From positions 1 to 51,629 of the forward strand of contig NZ_NFLU01000016.1 of assembly GCF_002161085.1 (NCBI RefSeq): a DNA stretch of 51,629 nt, written 5' to 3'. The DNA comes from Flavonifractor sp. An112. GTDB lineage: Bacteria; Bacillota; Clostridia; Oscillospirales; Oscillospiraceae. Numbering within the stretch: the stretch's first letter is position 1; each line of letters begins with the position of its first letter. Under the pieces are notes generated by a model. That model did not search any database, was not told where the DNA came from, and saw nothing but the letters and a program-made list of their open reading frames with translations. This document shows, piece after piece, positions 14,788 through 37,994 of the stretch. Both the position numbers and the translations under genes were made by a program.

Positions 14788-14931
14788 TTATCTGAAAATT
14801 AAAGAGGCAAAAAACGGATGGCTGTCGGCAAGCAGCTCCACGGGAATCTCACCCCGGCCCATGCTGATGGGTGCGCCGCGCAATGCTTTGAGGGCGTTCA
14901 ACGCGGGAGTCTCATTATCCTGTCTGTGCAT
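14788..14931 (-). CDS. Small unrecognised ORF in the mobile remnant
   Basis: A 47-codon frame (ATG 14931, TAA at 14788) encodes a peptide with the segment ISMGRGEIPVELL and a hydrophobic end (PFFASLIFR). Codon use looks coding, but the ribosome site (GTGAGG close to the ATG) is weak and the family is not recognised. It could be the 3' remnant of a longer element gene. The surrounding 14650-15150 holds nothing else I can support. Confidence 0.3.
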   Translation of the reverse strand: MHRQDNETPALNALKALRGAPISMGRGEIPVELLADSHPFFASLIFR

Positions 14932-32856: not shown

Positions 32857-32882
32857 CGGGCGACCATAAAGGTCGCCCCTAC
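32857..32882. repeat. Short interspersed palindromic repeat, copy 2
   Basis: GGGCGACC, ATAAA loop, GGTCGCCCCTAC repeats the sequence at 29416-29440. Its end supplies the stop codon (CTA on the plus strand, TAG on the minus) of the antiporter gene. Confidence 0.6.
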
Positions 32883-34060
32883 TTGTCTTTGGAGAGCAGC
32901 CGTTTGTAGGTGAAGTCGATGGCGAAAGCGCCCAGGGGGGCGGTGACCAGGATGGCAATGACCGCCACGGTGAGCACGATCTGCCCGCACCCCAGGCCCA
33001 TGGCCAGAGGCACGCCGCCGATGGCAGCCTGGACGGTGGCCTTGGGCAGATAGGCCAGCACCGCAAAGATCCGCTCCTTTTTGTTGAGGCGGCTGCCTGC
33101 CATGCACAGCAGCACGCCCAGGGCCCGGAAGCACAGCACCCCCAGCACCGTGGCCACGGCGGCCAGACCGGCGGCTGCGGCATAGGGCAGGTTGACCTCG
33201 GCGCCCACCAGCACGAAGAGCATGATCTCAGCGCCCACCCACAGCTTGCCGAACTTGGCGGTGAGCCGCTGGGCCACCACCAGCCGCCAGCGCCGCAGGC
33301 CCAGACCGGCCCCCAGCACCGCCAGCAGGCCGGAGAAGGGCACCCAGGCTTCCACCGCATCCTCCAGGGCCACCAGCAGGAAGGCCAGGGAGAGCAGAAT
33401 GACCACCTTCACCGAGTCCCGCATATGGAACCGGGCAAAGAACTTTGCCAGCACAAAGCCGATGAGCAGGCCGAAGGCCGCACCCAGTACAATGGACACC
33501 GGCACCCCGGCCAGGGCGGCGGGGGAGAAGGAGCCCCCCTGGGCCATGCCGGTGAAGGAGGTAAAGAGGACGATGACGAACACGTCGTCCACCGAGGCCC
33601 CTGCCAGCACCATCTGGGGAATGCCCTTGGTGGTGCCGTAGCCCTCCTCCATCAGTTTGAGCATCCGGGGCACAATGACGGCGGGGGAGACCGCCCCCAC
33701 CACCGCGCCCATGATGGCGGCGTCCAGGGTGCTCACCTCCAGCAGCCGGGGGGCCAGTACCACCATGCCCAGCACCTCAAAGGCGGCGGGCAGGAAGCAC
33801 ATGAGGATGGCGGGCCGTCCCGCCCGGCGCAGATCCTCCACATCCAGACTCAGACCCGCCCGGGTGAGGATAATGACCAGGGCCAGCTGCCGCAGGTCGG
33901 CGGAAATCCCCAGCAGGGAGGGGGAGAGCAGATTGAGGACGCAGGGCCCCAGCAGAATGCCCGCCAGCAGCATACCCACCAGGGAGGGCAGCCGCAGCCT
34001 GGTGGCCAGGGTGCCCAGGGCCAGGCCCAGCAGCAGCACAAAGCCTAAACTTGTTAACAT
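32879..34060 (-). CDS. Cation:proton antiporter (CPA family)
   Basis: The 393-residue protein starts at ATG 34060 (AAGGA ten bases upstream) and has about eleven to twelve membrane helices. LPSLVGMLLAGILLGP opens the fold and GASVDDVFVIVLF holds the paired Asp typical of CPA2-type exchangers. It lacks a C-terminal TrkA-N or USP domain. It probably exchanges Na+ or K+ for H+; ion specificity cannot be read. It is preceded by a 230-base structured leader and a consensus promoter, so it may be under leader control. Confidence 0.88.
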   Translation of the reverse strand: MLTSLGFVLLLGLALGTLATRLRLPSLVGMLLAGILLGPCVLNLLSPSLLGISADLRQLALVIILTRAGLSLDVEDLRRAGRPAILMCFLPAAFEVLGMVVLAPRLLEVSTLDAAIMGAVVGAVSPAVIVPRMLKLMEEGYGTTKGIPQMVLAGASVDDVFVIVLFTSFTGMAQGGSFSPAALAGVPVSIVLGAAFGLLIGFVLAKFFARFHMRDSVKVVILLSLAFLLVALEDAVEAWVPFSGLLAVLGAGLGLRRWRLVVAQRLTAKFGKLWVGAEIMLFVLVGAEVNLPYAAAAGLAAVATVLGVLCFRALGVLLCMAGSRLNKKERIFAVLAYLPKATVQAAIGGVPLAMGLGCGQIVLTVAVIAILVTAPLGAFAIDFTYKRLLSKDK

Positions 34061-34292
34061 ACACACATCATCCTTCCCAGAGGGCGTCACCCTTCCTGCG
34101 CGGCATTGCCGCACAGGAAGGGTTGTGCATCATTTCCGGTTGCCCCAACGGGGCGAGGAAATGGCACATCTCTCTTTTTTGTTGCGTTTTTGCGCAACAA
34201 AAAAGCCAATGCCCCCTGCAACAAATTGCAGAAGTCATCAGCCAAACGGCGGTTCGGGCAAATGCCCCGGGCGGACCTCATCCCCGTATTTC
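34061..34292 (-). ncRNA. Long structured 5' leader of the antiporter gene (unclassified)
   Basis: Between the promoter and the ATG five hairpins can be drawn: 34090-34122 (16 bp), 34132-34162, 34174-34205 (13-bp perfect stem), 34216-34231 and 34256-34267. The CCTTCC of the last hairpin before the gene could alternatively pair with the GGAAGG ribosome site. No match to ydaO, Na+ or other riboswitches that I know was seen. It could be a new cis-regulator or simply an inserted repeat. Confidence 0.45.
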
Positions 34293-34298
34293 GGTGGC

Positions 34299-34327
34299 AG
34301 TATACCACAGGCTGATCCCCTTGTCAA
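34299..34327 (-). promoter_or_regulatory. Promoter of the antiporter gene
   Basis: On the minus strand consensus TTGACA (34322-34327) and TATACT (34299-34304) are separated by 17 bases. Confidence 0.8.
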
Positions 34328-34344
34328 CTGTGGGAAAAGGGAGT

Positions 34345-34593
34345 ATGATAATGCGTACAGAGCAAAACCGAACGCACAGCAGGCCAAGGCGTTCGGTTTT
34401 GCGGCGCAAGGGGCTTGTGCGATACTGCCCCAACCCCTTGCGCCGTTCGCCGGGACGTGTTTCGTTCCGGCGAACATACGCATTGTCACAATGTCGCAAT
34501 TTCACAAAACAGCGAAGTACGCCGTTTTGTGAAATTGCGCGGCCCTGCCGCGCCAATCAACCGCGTTGCGGTTGATTCAGCAGACATTATGAT
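34345..34593 (-). repeat. Structured element, copy A
   Basis: On the plus strand: stems 34362-34375/34389-34402 (14 bp), 34403-34413/34434-34444 (11 bp), 34445-34453/34467-34475 (9 bp), 34495-34510/34524-34539 (16 bp), 34537-34543/34547-34553 (7 bp) and 34555-34564/34568-34577 (10 bp), all perfect. AATGCGTA (34350) can pair with TACGCATT (34477) to close the first three. Read on the minus strand it is homologous to copy B at 36350-36618. It fills the gap between the antiporter promoter and tatD. Confidence 0.85.
34566..34593 (+). promoter_or_regulatory. Candidate tatD promoter at the end of element A
   Basis: TTGCGG (34566-34571), a 16-base spacer and TATGAT (34588-34593) point outward from the element toward tatD. 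Confidence 0.5.
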
Positions 34594-34621
34594 GAAAAAA
34601 ACAAGACCACAGGAGGCCTTT

Positions 34622-35386
34622 ATGATCTTCGATACCCACGCCCATTACTATGACGACGCCTTTGACGCCGACCGGGATGCCCTGCTGGCCCAGCTGCCGG
34701 ACAAGGGGGTGGACCTGGTGGTGTGCCCCGGCTGCGACCTGGAGTCCTCCCGGCAGTCCATGGCCCTGGCCGAGCGCTACGACTATCTCTACTTTGCCGC
34801 CGGGTTCCATCCGGAGAACCTGGAGGGTGTGACCATGGGTCAGCTGGATGAGATCCGCGCCCTGTGTGCCCACAAGAAATGTGTGGCGGTGGGGGAGATC
34901 GGCCTGGACTACTACTGGGTCAAGACCCCCGAGGACCGGGCCAACTCCCGGGACTTTTTTGACGCCCAGCTCTCCCTGGCGGAGGAGCTGGACCTGCCCG
35001 CCATCGTCCACGACCGGGACGCCCACAAGGACTGTGTGGACATGGTCCGTGCCCATCCCAACGCCCGGGGCGTGTTCCACTGCTACGCCGGCAGCATTGA
35101 GGACGCCAAGGTGCTGGTGGACAAGGGGTGGATGCTCTCCTTCACCGGCAATATCACCTTCAAGAACGCCCGCCGGGCCCCTGAGGTGATCCGCTGGCTG
35201 CCCATGGACCGGATTATGCTGGAGACCGACGCCCCCTACATGGCCCCCGAGCCCTACCGGGGCCGCCGGTGCGACTCCTCCCTCATCCCCCTGATGGCCC
35301 AGACGGTGGCCCAGCTGAAGGGACTGACCACCGAAGAAGTATTACAGATTACCCTGGAGAATGGAAAACGGTTTTTCGGCCTGTGA
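34622..35386 (+). CDS. tatD: TatD family metal-dependent hydrolase
   Basis: The 254-residue amidohydrolase-fold protein starts at ATG 34622 after CAGGAGG. Metal ligands are seen in FDTHAHYYD (two His), GEIGLDYYW (Glu), IVHDRDAHKD (His), FHCYAGS (His) and LETDAPYMAP (Asp). TatD proteins are Mg2+-dependent DNases/3' exonucleases. The radical SAM gene that follows 16 bases later is of the TatD-linked type, so the two form one unit. Confidence 0.93.
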   Translation: MIFDTHAHYYDDAFDADRDALLAQLPDKGVDLVVCPGCDLESSRQSMALAERYDYLYFAAGFHPENLEGVTMGQLDEIRALCAHKKCVAVGEIGLDYYWVKTPEDRANSRDFFDAQLSLAEELDLPAIVHDRDAHKDCVDMVRAHPNARGVFHCYAGSIEDAKVLVDKGWMLSFTGNITFKNARRAPEVIRWLPMDRIMLETDAPYMAPEPYRGRRCDSSLIPLMAQTVAQLKGLTTEEVLQITLENGKRFFGL

Positions 35387-35402
35387 GTAAGGAGGTATTT
35401 TT

Positions 35403-36020
35403 ATGGAGACCATTTCCTATGAGTACGAAGGCGCCCTCTATGTGAACCTGACCAACCGGTGCGACTGCCGGTGCGTGTTCTGCCTGCGACACAACGGCCA
35501 TAAGGGCTCCATCTATGCCGATGATCTGTGGCTGGACCACGAGCCCACCCGGCAGGAGGCCCTGGACGACCTGCTGGCCCGGGACTACTCCAAGTACCGG
35601 GAGCTGGTGTTCTGCGGCTTCGGCGAGCCCATGTACCGCACCGACGACATCCTGTGGCTGGTGGACCAGCTGAAGGAGAAGGTGCCCAACCTGCCTCCCA
35701 TCCGCATCAATACCAACGGCCACGCCAACCTGATCCTGGGCCGGGACGTGACGCCTGAGCTGTCCGGCCGCATCGACACCGTATCCATCTCCCTCAACGG
35801 CTCCACGCCGGAGGAATACTGTGCCGTCACCCAGCCCAGGGACGGGGTCAAGGCCTGGGAGGCCATGCTGGACTTCGCCAGGAAGGCCAAGGCCCATGTG
35901 CCCCATGTGGTGATGACCATCGTGGACAAGGACAAGACCCCGGCGGAGATCGACCGCTGCCGGGCCATCACGGAGGAGCTGGGGGTCACCCTCCGTATCC
36001 GGGCCTATATCGAGGATTAA
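35403..36020 (+). CDS. TatD-associated radical SAM protein
   Basis: A 205-residue radical SAM enzyme with CDCRCVFC (CxxxCxxC) binding the 4Fe-4S cluster, FCGFGEPMYR and NTNGHANL as SAM-contacting strands. It lacks a SPASM extension. The size and its place behind tatD match the TatD-linked radical SAM family; the reaction is unknown. AAGGAGG precedes the ATG. Confidence 0.9.
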   Translation: METISYEYEGALYVNLTNRCDCRCVFCLRHNGHKGSIYADDLWLDHEPTRQEALDDLLARDYSKYRELVFCGFGEPMYRTDDILWLVDQLKEKVPNLPPIRINTNGHANLILGRDVTPELSGRIDTVSISLNGSTPEEYCAVTQPRDGVKAWEAMLDFARKAKAHVPHVVMTIVDKDKTPAEIDRCRAITEELGVTLRIRAYIED

Positions 36021-36062
36021 AAACAGCTGGGGCGCTGCAACAGCAGCGCCCCAGCTTGTTTT
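36021..36062. terminator. Bidirectional terminator
   Basis: A 14-bp perfect stem (AGCTGGGGCGCTGC, 36025-36038, with 36043-36056) is flanked by AAA and TTGTTTT; it serves the convergent radical SAM and HPr-like genes. Confidence 0.85.
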
Positions 36063-36065
36063 CCT

Positions 36066-36299
36066 TTACTTGACAAAGGCGGCTACCGCCTGACGGAAGG
36101 CGGCCTGATCGCCGTCGCTGCCGTGGAGGCGGACTGTCACCGGGTGAGACAGGTCCAGAGAAAACAGCCCCATAATGGACTTACCGTCCACCACATAGCG
36201 GCCGGACAGAATGTCCACCTCGCAGGGAGAGCGGGTGGCGGCGTTGACAAACTGGCGGACCTCCTCGATGGAGGCCAGAGAGACCTGGAATTCAGACAT
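36066..36299 (-). CDS. HPr-like protein without the phosphorylatable His
   Basis: A 77-residue HPr-fold protein with AGGAGGTG before its ATG. The segment DGKSIMGLFSLDLS keeps the Ser (S41) that HPr kinase modifies in HPr/Crh. The region that should hold the active His (His-Ala-Arg-Pro) reads NAATRSPCEV, so it cannot carry sugar phosphotransfer. It may act like Crh in regulation or be a diverged paralog. Confidence 0.82.
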   Translation of the reverse strand: MSEFQVSLASIEEVRQFVNAATRSPCEVDILSGRYVVDGKSIMGLFSLDLSHPVTVRLHGSDGDQAAFRQAVAAFVK

Positions 36300-36326
36300 G
36301 GGGCACCTCCTGAACGAATATTATCC

Positions 36327-36354
36327 TTGCAATCAAACTGGAATTCCGTATAAT
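36327..36354 (+). promoter_or_regulatory. Candidate promoter reading into element B
   Basis: TTGCAA (36327-36332), a 16-base spacer and TATAAT (36349-36354). It would transcribe the structured element from near its left end. Confidence 0.5.
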
Positions 36355-36618
36355 AATGTCTGCTGAATAAACCGCGATGCGGTTTATTCGCGCGAAGGTA
36401 GCCGCGCAATTTCATAAAAACAGCTCAAAGTGGCTGTTTTTATGAAATTCAGCCATTGTTACAATGCGTATTTCCGTTGGCGCGTCTCAACGCACCAACG
36501 GAAAGTGCGAGGTTTTTTGGACCAGATCGTCCAAAACCCTTGCACTTGAACAAAGCCATTTGGCCTTGAAAACCTTGGTTTTCAAGGCTTGTGACTTTGT
36601 TCAGTACGCATTATAATA
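36350..36618 (+). repeat. Structured element, copy B
   Basis: Stems: 36366-36375/36379-36388 (10 bp), 36390-36394/36403-36407, 36408-36424/36433-36449 (17 bp), 36454-36459/36461-36466, 36471-36480/36495-36504 (10 bp), 36504-36520 with 36531-36546 (interrupted), and 36547-36555/36595-36603 enclosing 36564-36574/36577-36587. AATGCGTA (36463) can pair with TACGCATT (36605). Unpaired segments ATAATGTCTGCTGAAT, CCGCGCAATTTCA and ACAATGCGTA are shared with copy A read on its minus strand, while most stem bases differ compensatorily. Confidence 0.85.
36589..36617 (+). promoter_or_regulatory. Candidate mtaB promoter at the right end of element B
   Basis: TTGTGA (36589-36594), a 17-base spacer and TATAAT (36612-36617) point out of the element toward mtaB. 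Confidence 0.6.
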
Positions 36619-36704: not shown

Positions 36705-37994
36705 ATGCGTACAGCGATCTATACCCTGGGCTGTAAGGTGAACCAGTACGAGACCCAGGCCATGGAGGCCGAGCTCACCCGCCGGGGCCACACTCTGGTG
36801 CCCTTTGACGGGGAGGCCGACGCCTATATCATCAACACCTGCACCGTTACGGCGGTGAGCGACAAGAAGTCCCGCCAGATGATCCGGCAGGCCCGTAAGC
36901 GCTCCCCCCACGCCATTGTGGCGGTGTGTGGCTGCTACGCCCAGACCGACCCCGAGGCGGTGGAGGCTCTGGAGGTGGACCTGGTGATGGGCACCAACGA
37001 CCGCATGGGCTTTCTGGACCGGCTGGAGGCCCTGAGCCCAGACGGGGGCCAGGTGGTGGACGTGGACGACGCCCTCCGCCGCCGCGCCTTCGAGCGGCTG
37101 CCCGCCGGCGGCCTGGAGGGCCGCACCCGGGCCATGCTGAAGGTGGAGGACGGCTGCGTCAACTTCTGCACCTACTGCATCATCCCCTACGCCCGGGGCC
37201 CCATCCGCTCCCTGCCCGCTGCCGAGGCCGCCGCCCAGGCCGCCAAGCTGGCAGAGGAGGGCTACAAAGAGCTGGTGCTTACCGGCATCGAGATCTCCTC
37301 TTGGGGCCGGGATCTGGAGGGCAAGCCGGAGCTGATGGACCTGATTGAGGCGGTGTGCGCCGCCGCGCCGGAGTGCCGGGTGCGGCTGGGCTCTCTGGAG
37401 CCCCGCACCATTACCGCCGATTTCTGCCGTCGGGGGGCGGCTATCCCCAACCTGTGCCCCCACTTCCACCTGTCCATGCAGTCGGGGTGCGACAGCGTTT
37501 TGAAGCGGATGAACCGGAAATATGATACCGCGCGGTATTATGAGAGCGTCAGATTCCTGCGGGAATACTTTGACCGGCCCGGAATCACCACAGATCTCAT
37601 TGTGGGCTTCCCCGGCGAGACCGAGGAGGAGTTTGTCCAGACTCTGGACTTTGTGCAAAAGTGCGCCTTTTCCGCCATGCACATCTTCCCCTACTCCCGC
37701 CGCTCCGGCACCCCTGCCGCCGCCATGGCCGGCCAGTGCTCCAACGCGGTGAAGGAGGAGCGGGCCCACCGGGCGGGTGAGGTGGCCCGTGGGCTCCGCC
37801 AGGCCTGGCTGGAGAGCTGGGTGGGCCAGACTCTGCCCGTTCTCTTCGAGGAGGAGAAGGACGGCCTGTGGCGGGGCCACGCCCCCAACTATACCGAGGT
37901 CTTTGTTTCGGGCCAGGGATTACACAATGTGATACAAGACGTAAAAATAACAGGCCTTCATGGAGAAGGCCTGTTGGGTGAGCTTGTGCTGTAA
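36705..37994 (+). CDS. mtaB: tRNA t6A37 methylthiotransferase MtaB
   Basis: The 429-residue protein (ATG 36705 after GAGAGGAAA) adds a methylthio group to t6A37 in tRNAs reading ANN codons. The UPF0004 domain begins YTLGCKVNQYE with Cys ligands in NTCTVT and CGCYAQ. The radical SAM cluster is CVNFCTYC (about residue 151), and a C-terminal TRAM-like domain ends the protein. The 3' end of the gene contains a perfect inverted repeat (AACAGGCCTT near 37949), possibly part of its termination. Confidence 0.95.
   Translation: MRTAIYTLGCKVNQYETQAMEAELTRRGHTLVPFDGEADAYIINTCTVTAVSDKKSRQMIRQARKRSPHAIVAVCGCYAQTDPEAVEALEVDLVMGTNDRMGFLDRLEALSPDGGQVVDVDDALRRRAFERLPAGGLEGRTRAMLKVEDGCVNFCTYCIIPYARGPIRSLPAAEAAAQAAKLAEEGYKELVLTGIEISSWGRDLEGKPELMDLIEAVCAAAPECRVRLGSLEPRTITADFCRRGAAIPNLCPHFHLSMQSGCDSVLKRMNRKYDTARYYESVRFLREYFDRPGITTDLIVGFPGETEEEFVQTLDFVQKCAFSAMHIFPYSRRSGTPAAAMAGQCSNAVKEERAHRAGEVARGLRQAWLESWVGQTLPVLFEEEKDGLWRGHAPNYTEVFVSGQGLHNVIQDVKITGLHGEGLLGELVL

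Follow-up and report, generated by a model that had tools for sequence, protein, structure and literature searches.

A promoter-splitting miniature transposable element with covarying hairpins in Oscillospiraceae

In a 51,629-nucleotide stretch of Flavonifractor sp. An112 (contig NZ_NFLU01000016.1, positions 1 to 51,629; hereafter the window), two inverted copies of a hairpin-rich sequence flank tatD, and their stems differ in bases while remaining paired. What keeps such stems paired: the needs of an RNA, or the behavior of a piece of mobile DNA? An earlier note made from the sequence alone had attributed the pattern to selection on the structure of either an RNA or a folded single-strand form of a mobile element. 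The present analysis favors, with a probability of roughly 85%, a miniature inverted-repeat transposable element (MITE) of gut bacteria, about 255 bp long, non-autonomous and non-coding, which has an insertion sequence (IS) of the IS5 type as its partner and hairpins that are paired mainly by template switching.

Dispersed copies and empty sites

Both copies in the window are insertions, as is evident from the corresponding sites without them. At the copy A locus, 13 of the 19 other genomes of the genus were element-free with a single -10 box (TATGAT in all aligned sites except L096, with TAAGAT), while G006 kept an element remnant of about 30 bases, four genomes were unalignable on the left, and one had no match. 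The copy B locus was filled in G006, and G002 and G016 had empty sites with an overlap of exactly 7 bases between the two flanks; it was also element-free in G007, G009, G010, G015, and G019, with upstream parts that were less alike, and 10 of the 19 genomes were unalignable on both sides. Copy A was inserted in the tatD promoter and copy B in the promoter of a MiaB-like gene (TTGTCA-17-TATGAT and TTGCAA-16-TATAAT, respectively), each duplicating 7 bp that include the -10 box. The parts of the two loci are as follows.

34321–34326 (+): -35 hexamer TTGTCA of the tatD promoter, 17 bp from TATGAT, kept in all aligned orthologous sites
34344–34350 (+): target duplication of copy A, TATGATA, with bases 1-6 being the -10 box of the tatD promoter (sequence; element-free site in 13 genomes)
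34351–34587 (-): copy A of the MITE, 237-bp core, ATG...CAT (sequence alignment)
34588–34594 (+): other duplication of copy A, TATGATG, one base different from TATGATA (sequence, orthologous sites)
34622–35386 (+): tatD, downstream of the promoter entered by copy A (Pfam TatD_DNase)
36327–36332 (+): -35 hexamer TTGCAA of the promoter entered by copy B, 16 bp from TATAAT (sequence; also in the closest empty sites)
36349–36355 (+): target duplication TATAATA left of copy B, containing the -10 box (sequence; empty sites)
36356–36611 (+): copy B of the MITE, 256-bp core (sequence alignment)
36612–36618 (+): target duplication TATAATA right of copy B (sequence; empty sites)
36705–37994 (+): MiaB-like gene 3' of copy B (Pfam UPF0004 and Radical_SAM), presumably encoding MtaB

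The two cores have opposite orientations and the same order of hairpins at the positions first given, and the conserved unpaired segments and paired stem changes that the earlier note had described proved real as well. The genes between the copies matched TatD, radical SAM, and HPr models in a profile search, in agreement with its account of the flanked genes. In G004, a MITE (L038, G004:C240:9848-10117) was located in the same intergenic region between the HPr-like and MiaB-like genes, near the place of copy B and in the opposite orientation.

Seven full copies were recovered in the 2.96 Mb An112 genome, both by DNA search and with a covariance model built on the left half. The model gave 20 matches at E ≤ 1, of which the best seven were the full copies, 12 lay in or overlapped these copies, and one was located elsewhere (C37:209795-209878, E 0.0027). 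Beyond this genome, matches to the element occurred in 15 of the 20 genus genomes (An112 included); a search with a different copy matched 53 of 400 genomes of the family, representing 30 of 106 genera. When named genomes were scanned with the left end, at least 116 stretches were found, including those in Flavonifractor, Pseudoflavonifractor, Intestinimonas, and Oscillibacter, and two exact-pattern scans of viral contigs found no exact match to the MITE left end or the IS end. Copies L063 and L040 were 100% identical at two non-orthologous sites, indicating recent movement. Further copies, covariation, and empty sites, the absence of which had been named as refuting the earlier proposal, were thus all present, and the suggestion of a mobile element was borne out by these empty sites as well as by duplicated targets, the scattering of copies, and a partner IS.

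Alignment of copies A and B with the five further copies of the same genome placed the ends at ATGTCTRCTGAAT...TACGCAT, with small variants, and the flanking direct repeats of these copies varied in step on both sides (TATAATA, TATACTA). The terminal inverted repeats were imperfect (ATGTCTGCTGAATAAAC and ATGCGTACTGAACAAAG, with 12 of 17 terminal bases alike), and full-length copies measured 223-257 bp (n = 95), too small for a transposase. In copy B, a separate inverted repeat encloses each half (GCTGAAT/ATTCAGC and ATGCGTA/TACGCAT), and the 7 bases TGTTACA separate the halves, such that the copy looks like a tandem fusion of two smaller elements.

No description of this MITE family was found in the open-access literature, of which the matching papers were partly covered. 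According to PMC2229807, the family resembles Correia/NEMIS, RUP, and ERIC in being short and non-autonomous with terminal inverted repeats; NEMIS forms RNA hairpins when transcribed, and the partner of RUP, IS630-Spn1, was inferred from like ends. Compared with these elements as described there, the present family differs in its approximately six separate hairpins in two inverted-repeat-bounded halves, its IS5-type partner, and the loop inversions between its copies, and compared with RUP, which targets TA (PMC2229807), in its target of 7 bp that resembles TANNNTA and frequently coincides with a -10 box.

Target sequence and promoters

Removal of three copies with short flanks and nine orthologous duplicates from the 95 full-length copies, which were distinct by their flanks, left 83 insertions. 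An exact 7-bp duplication was present in 45 of them, compared with a mean of 10.9 and a maximum of 19 under random pairing, and six further insertions were exact over 6 bp. The left duplication had T at position 1 in 74, A at position 2 in 70, T at position 6 in 77, and A at position 7 in all 83 insertions, and it read TATAATA in 33. In several genomes, the left stub of the element alone remained between a -10 box and a gene. The same left-end stub TATGATAATGTCTGCTGAATCGACC was observed behind a promoter-like site (TTGACA-17-TATGAT) in L155 and L175, from two species, perhaps an old shared insertion. At another orthologous promoter (L031 and L033, two species, flanks 87% alike), MITEs in the same orientation were only 65% alike, which would reflect either more than one insertion at the same -10 box or conversion among the copies.

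Many of the targets resemble promoters. At a spacing of 17 bp, the trinucleotide TTG was present upstream of 18 left and 9 right duplications among the 83 insertions, compared with 0-7 at other spacings (the 7 being at 18 bp on the left). A -35 hexamer with at least 4/6 matches at 16-18 bp was present on the left in 29 insertions, against 5-13 at control spacings. The association was also asymmetric, with the -35 on the left only in 27 insertions and on the right only in 13 (p 0.038), and TATAATA outnumbering TATTATA by 33 to 6 in the left duplication (p 1.4e-5).

These counts raise the possibility that the transposition system recognizes promoters themselves beyond TANNNTA, for example as -10 boxes bound by RNA polymerase. 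The peak of TTG at 17 bp on both sides speaks for it, as do the TACAATA targets, for which 5 of 7 insertions and 17 of 77 background sites had a TTG 16-18 bp away. For TATAATA itself, however, 113 of 234 background sites in the same loci (which include unmasked element stubs) carried TTG at that distance, compared with 18 of the 33 insertions with this left duplication, and over nine target motifs such a TTG accompanied 26 of 61 insertions, where the background rates predict about 21. Since TTG is nearly as frequent at background TATAATA sites, preference for the target motif accounts for most of the promoter association, and promoter recognition as such, which was rejected for the same reason, is very improbable.

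With regard to consequences, an IS5 insertion in Escherichia coli made a fusion promoter, as reported in PMC11894529; by analogy with this case, effects of the MITE insertions on gene expression are plausible.

An IS5-type partner

Searching for the end pattern brought up contig ends in G004 on which both types of IS end are present, and this DNA was matched in 14 of the 400 family genomes at E ≤ 0.001, in some over short stretches only. The copy of the IS in G172 encodes a 477-aa transposase, P0001, assigned to the IS5 family by NCBIfam NF033578 (E 4.4e-124, 414.8 bits vs. a cut-off of 275), with the Pfam domains DUF772 and DDE_Tnp_1_2. Autonomous IS5-type copies with like ends, both ends being present along with a duplication, were found in related genera: L328 had the 7-bp duplication TACGTTA, and L329 and L330 had 6-bp duplications. 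Copies L333 and L338, with transposases 43% identical to P0001 and more distant ends, were likewise flanked by 6-bp duplications. Transposases of the P0001 type (E ≤ 1e-80) occurred in 8 of 300 family genomes, and relatives were detected in 293 of 72,556 plasmid records, 292 of them at less than 60% identity.

The MITE right end is homologous to the transposase-side end of the IS. With the terminal 16 bases removed, none of 300 shuffles reached the score of the comparison for six of nine IS ends; for the remaining ends, the score was reached by 1/300 (G070), 12/300 (G226), and 86/300 (G367) shuffles. This similarity extends over the inverted repeat GTGCAAGG/CCTTGCAC, located in the IS between a TATAAT and the start codon of the transposase gene. 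The left end of the MITE had no such similarity to the transposase-side IS end, which was the end covered by this comparison. The MITE is therefore like the IS5 family (NF033578) in its ends and in its right half, which resembles the transposase-side end of an IS whose transposase scores above the family cut-off, and unlike it in lacking a transposase, in the dissimilarity of its left half to that end, and in its duplications of 6-7 bp, the classic IS5 duplication being 4 bp. We infer from the likeness of the ends that the MITE would be mobilized in trans by an IS5-type transposase.

Paired stem changes and inverted loops

After removal of copies at least 95% alike, 79 non-redundant copies (median pairwise identity 0.75, minimum 0.49) were analyzed on one consensus structure with 103 tested pairs, to which the following hairpins of the window belong.

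34495–34539 (-): hairpin H3 of copy A
36408–36449 (+): hairpin H3 of copy B, a 17-bp perfect stem, strongly covarying
36471–36504 (+): hairpin H4 of copy B, with all 14 pairs having at least two Watson-Crick types among the 79 copies
36503–36547 (+): hairpin H5 of copy B, with a stem of the GTGCAAGG...CCTTGCAC type (stretch matching another copy on the opposite strand)
36547–36603 (+): hairpin H6 of copy B (opposite-strand self match)

Watson-Crick pairs filled 7196 of 8009 cells (0.898), compared with a mean of 0.790 and a maximum of 0.796 when the 3' letters were dealt anew. Fitch parsimony on a FastTree tree gave 262 two-sided Watson-Crick changes (134 on internal and 128 on tip branches), against 13-25 in all when partners were slid by 2 or 3 columns, so that the stem pairing, which rests on far more than the two copies in which it was first noticed, far exceeds chance. 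Hairpins H3, H4, and H5 held 200 of the 262 changes, and the two closing stems held 6. The inverted repeat AATGCGTA/TACGCATT, proposed earlier to close a multi-branch domain, does exist, but it is nearly invariant, with two Watson-Crick types in 2 of 7 pairs and 5 two-sided changes, and covariation lends little support to its closing role.

Covariation of this strength, together with the location of the element at promoters, about where transcription would start, and the left-sided excess of -35 hexamers and of TATAATA over TATTATA, would suit a structured RNA. In such a scenario, transcription would run from the invaded promoter into the element, and the resulting leader with its many hairpins would be under selection as RNA, for example for limiting harm to the downstream gene or regulating it. 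RNA stems tolerate G-U halfway states and not A-C ones. In the MITE, however, no strand-specific tolerance of G-U over A-C was found: changes from Watson-Crick to G-U and to A-C numbered 34:35 on internal branches and 129:123 on tips over all 103 pairs. Counted as states, G-U exceeded A-C by 310 to 206 over these pairs and by 216 to 204 when two helix-end pairs rich in G-U (61 and 33 copies) were omitted; with the same omission, the ratio was 70:60 for copies in sense to the promoter (24 copies), 26:35 in antisense (11), and 120:109 for undecided ones (44). As a control, 15 distinct tRNAs from the same loci gave 23:0, a figure to be read with the fact that ARAGORN itself uses G-U pairs to find tRNAs.

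Further evidence came from the loops, which are inverted between copies (loops of fewer than 3 bases were left out of the counts). Among distinct loops, 42 had a reverse-complement partner, 12 a reverse partner, and 12 a complement partner, and 179 copies carried reverse-complement-partnered loops, compared with a null mean of 115.0 and a maximum of 158. In 32 copy pairs at least 95% alike outside their loops, which are non-independent and include orthologues, 31 loop differences remained after exclusion of short loops and those with fewer than two differences, and 10 of these were exact reverse complements, with no reverse and no complement. Exact inversions were also seen between orthologous insertions, namely GCAGGAC in L073 vs. 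GTCCTGC in L006 and L058 for the H4 loop, and ACGATCTCGT in L002 (An112 itself) vs. ACGAGATCGT in L037 for the H5 loop.

Such marks are those of template switching, which homogenizes hairpin arms and inverts spacers (PMC8604942) and maintains hairpins with multibase compensatory changes (PMC8794818). The MITE shares two-sided multibase changes, arm homogenization, and spacer inversion with the hairpins of these studies. Their subjects were genes for rRNA and other RNAs and coding DNA of yeast; the present case is a MITE scattered over bacterial genomes, some of whose resident copies are orthologous. Because the halfway states are equal and the loops exactly inverted, the covariation does not prove an RNA. 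In addition, the copies occur at many unrelated places, some reduced to stubs, and a scan of the window with Rfam 15 found no family over the copies at gathering scores, which eliminated a known RNA family as a candidate and agrees with the earlier remark that no named family fits. RNA-level selection, one of the two options raised at the outset, is accordingly disfavored, and a structured RNA is quite improbable as the explanation. Elsewhere in the window, the Rfam scan matched a fluoride riboswitch adjoining copy A (34222-34294, -, 40.6 bits), with a Na+/H+ exchanger-type gene (32882-34060) downstream of it, and a pemK RNA motif (14838-14918, -, 45.1 bits).

The other option, a folded single-strand DNA form of the element, is possible and close to the template-switch explanation. 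In its stronger version, the hairpins would be a functional DNA array, extruded or single-stranded, that is needed for transposition and kept by mobile lineages. It is consistent with the equal treatment of both strands, with the fit of one consensus structure to all 79 copies despite identities as low as the minimum given above, and with the ratio of one-sided to two-sided changes, which was 365:128 on tips and 111:134 on internal branches, a contrast that would arise if copies with broken hairpins left fewer descendants. The same contrast, however, would result from a lag in correction, and two-sided changes also occurred between resident orthologues: the older pair L070 and L006 differed by six one-sided and six two-sided changes, for which reason a restriction of two-sided changes to the mobile phase, suggested by close orthologues, was rejected. 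To our knowledge, IS5-type DDE transposition is not known to need internal hairpins. A hairpin array required for movement is thus unlikely, and rather unlikely too is a combined scenario in which a promoter-splitting element, inserted over -10 boxes, usually with the left end facing the promoter, and leaving two -10 boxes, depends on extruded hairpins for its movement while template switching supplies the paired changes. If true, hairpin-dependent movement would allow DNA-level selection on hairpins to be read from the many insertions of this bacterial family.

Several observations weigh against an IS5-mobilized MITE with hairpins paired mainly by template switching. As for the target, the halves of the duplication differed by one base over 7 in 23 of the 83 insertions, and 32 had no exact 6- or 7-bp duplication. 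On the right side, -35 hexamers at 16-18 bp (same 4/6 threshold) numbered 15, vs. 7-15 at control spacings, equalling the 15 at the control spacing of 5-7 bp and giving no excess, and 41 insertions lacked such a -35 on either side. As for the partner, a protein search at E ≤ 1e-10 found no transposase of the P0001 type in the An112 genome and one partial match in the 20 genomes of the genus (G015), and within the genus IS ends were found only in G004, at contig edges. As for template switching, the 42 distinct reverse-complement-partnered loops did not exceed a column-shuffle null (mean 56.1), and inverted loops became rarer at lower identity (55/1199 at 90%, with 9 complements; 149/5413 at 85%, with 32 complements and one reverse). 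Five comparisons of close orthologues yielded 17 one-sided changes and one two-sided change, which was not Watson-Crick to Watson-Crick, and the older orthologous pair L215 and L258 yielded 11 and one, respectively. Two-sided changes thus increased with divergence at the resident locus of L070 and L006 and not at that of L215 and L258. The share of transitions (156 of the 262 two-sided changes) was tried as a discriminator and discarded, being near the 61.0% given for rRNA genes in PMC8794818 and giving no separation between the explanations.

Taken together, the proposed mechanism would run as follows. The transposase of an IS5-type IS with like ends would insert the MITE at sites resembling TANNNTA, chiefly TATAATA, with a duplication of 7 or, in some cases, 6 bp. 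As TATAATA is very often a -10 box in the Oscillospiraceae genomes studied, insertions would split promoters, with the native -35 and -10 then reading into the element and a second copy of the -10 remaining next to the gene, and read-through would probably transcribe the element as a 5' leader. During DNA synthesis, the hairpin arms would template each other, such that both sides change together and loops invert; selection on the DNA hairpin would not be needed, though it may add to template switching.

In this reading, what is new is the MITE family itself, its insertion into TATAATA, a sequence like a -10 box, and the trace that template switching between hairpin arms has left in nature. The numerous insertions, including some whose resident copies are orthologous, provide natural data for measuring this process, and they carry a warning that strong covariation, commonly read as demonstrating an RNA structure, can also be the product of template switching in mobile DNA. 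For the Oscillospiraceae, the element represents a widespread mobile element that splits the promoters of genes such as tatD.

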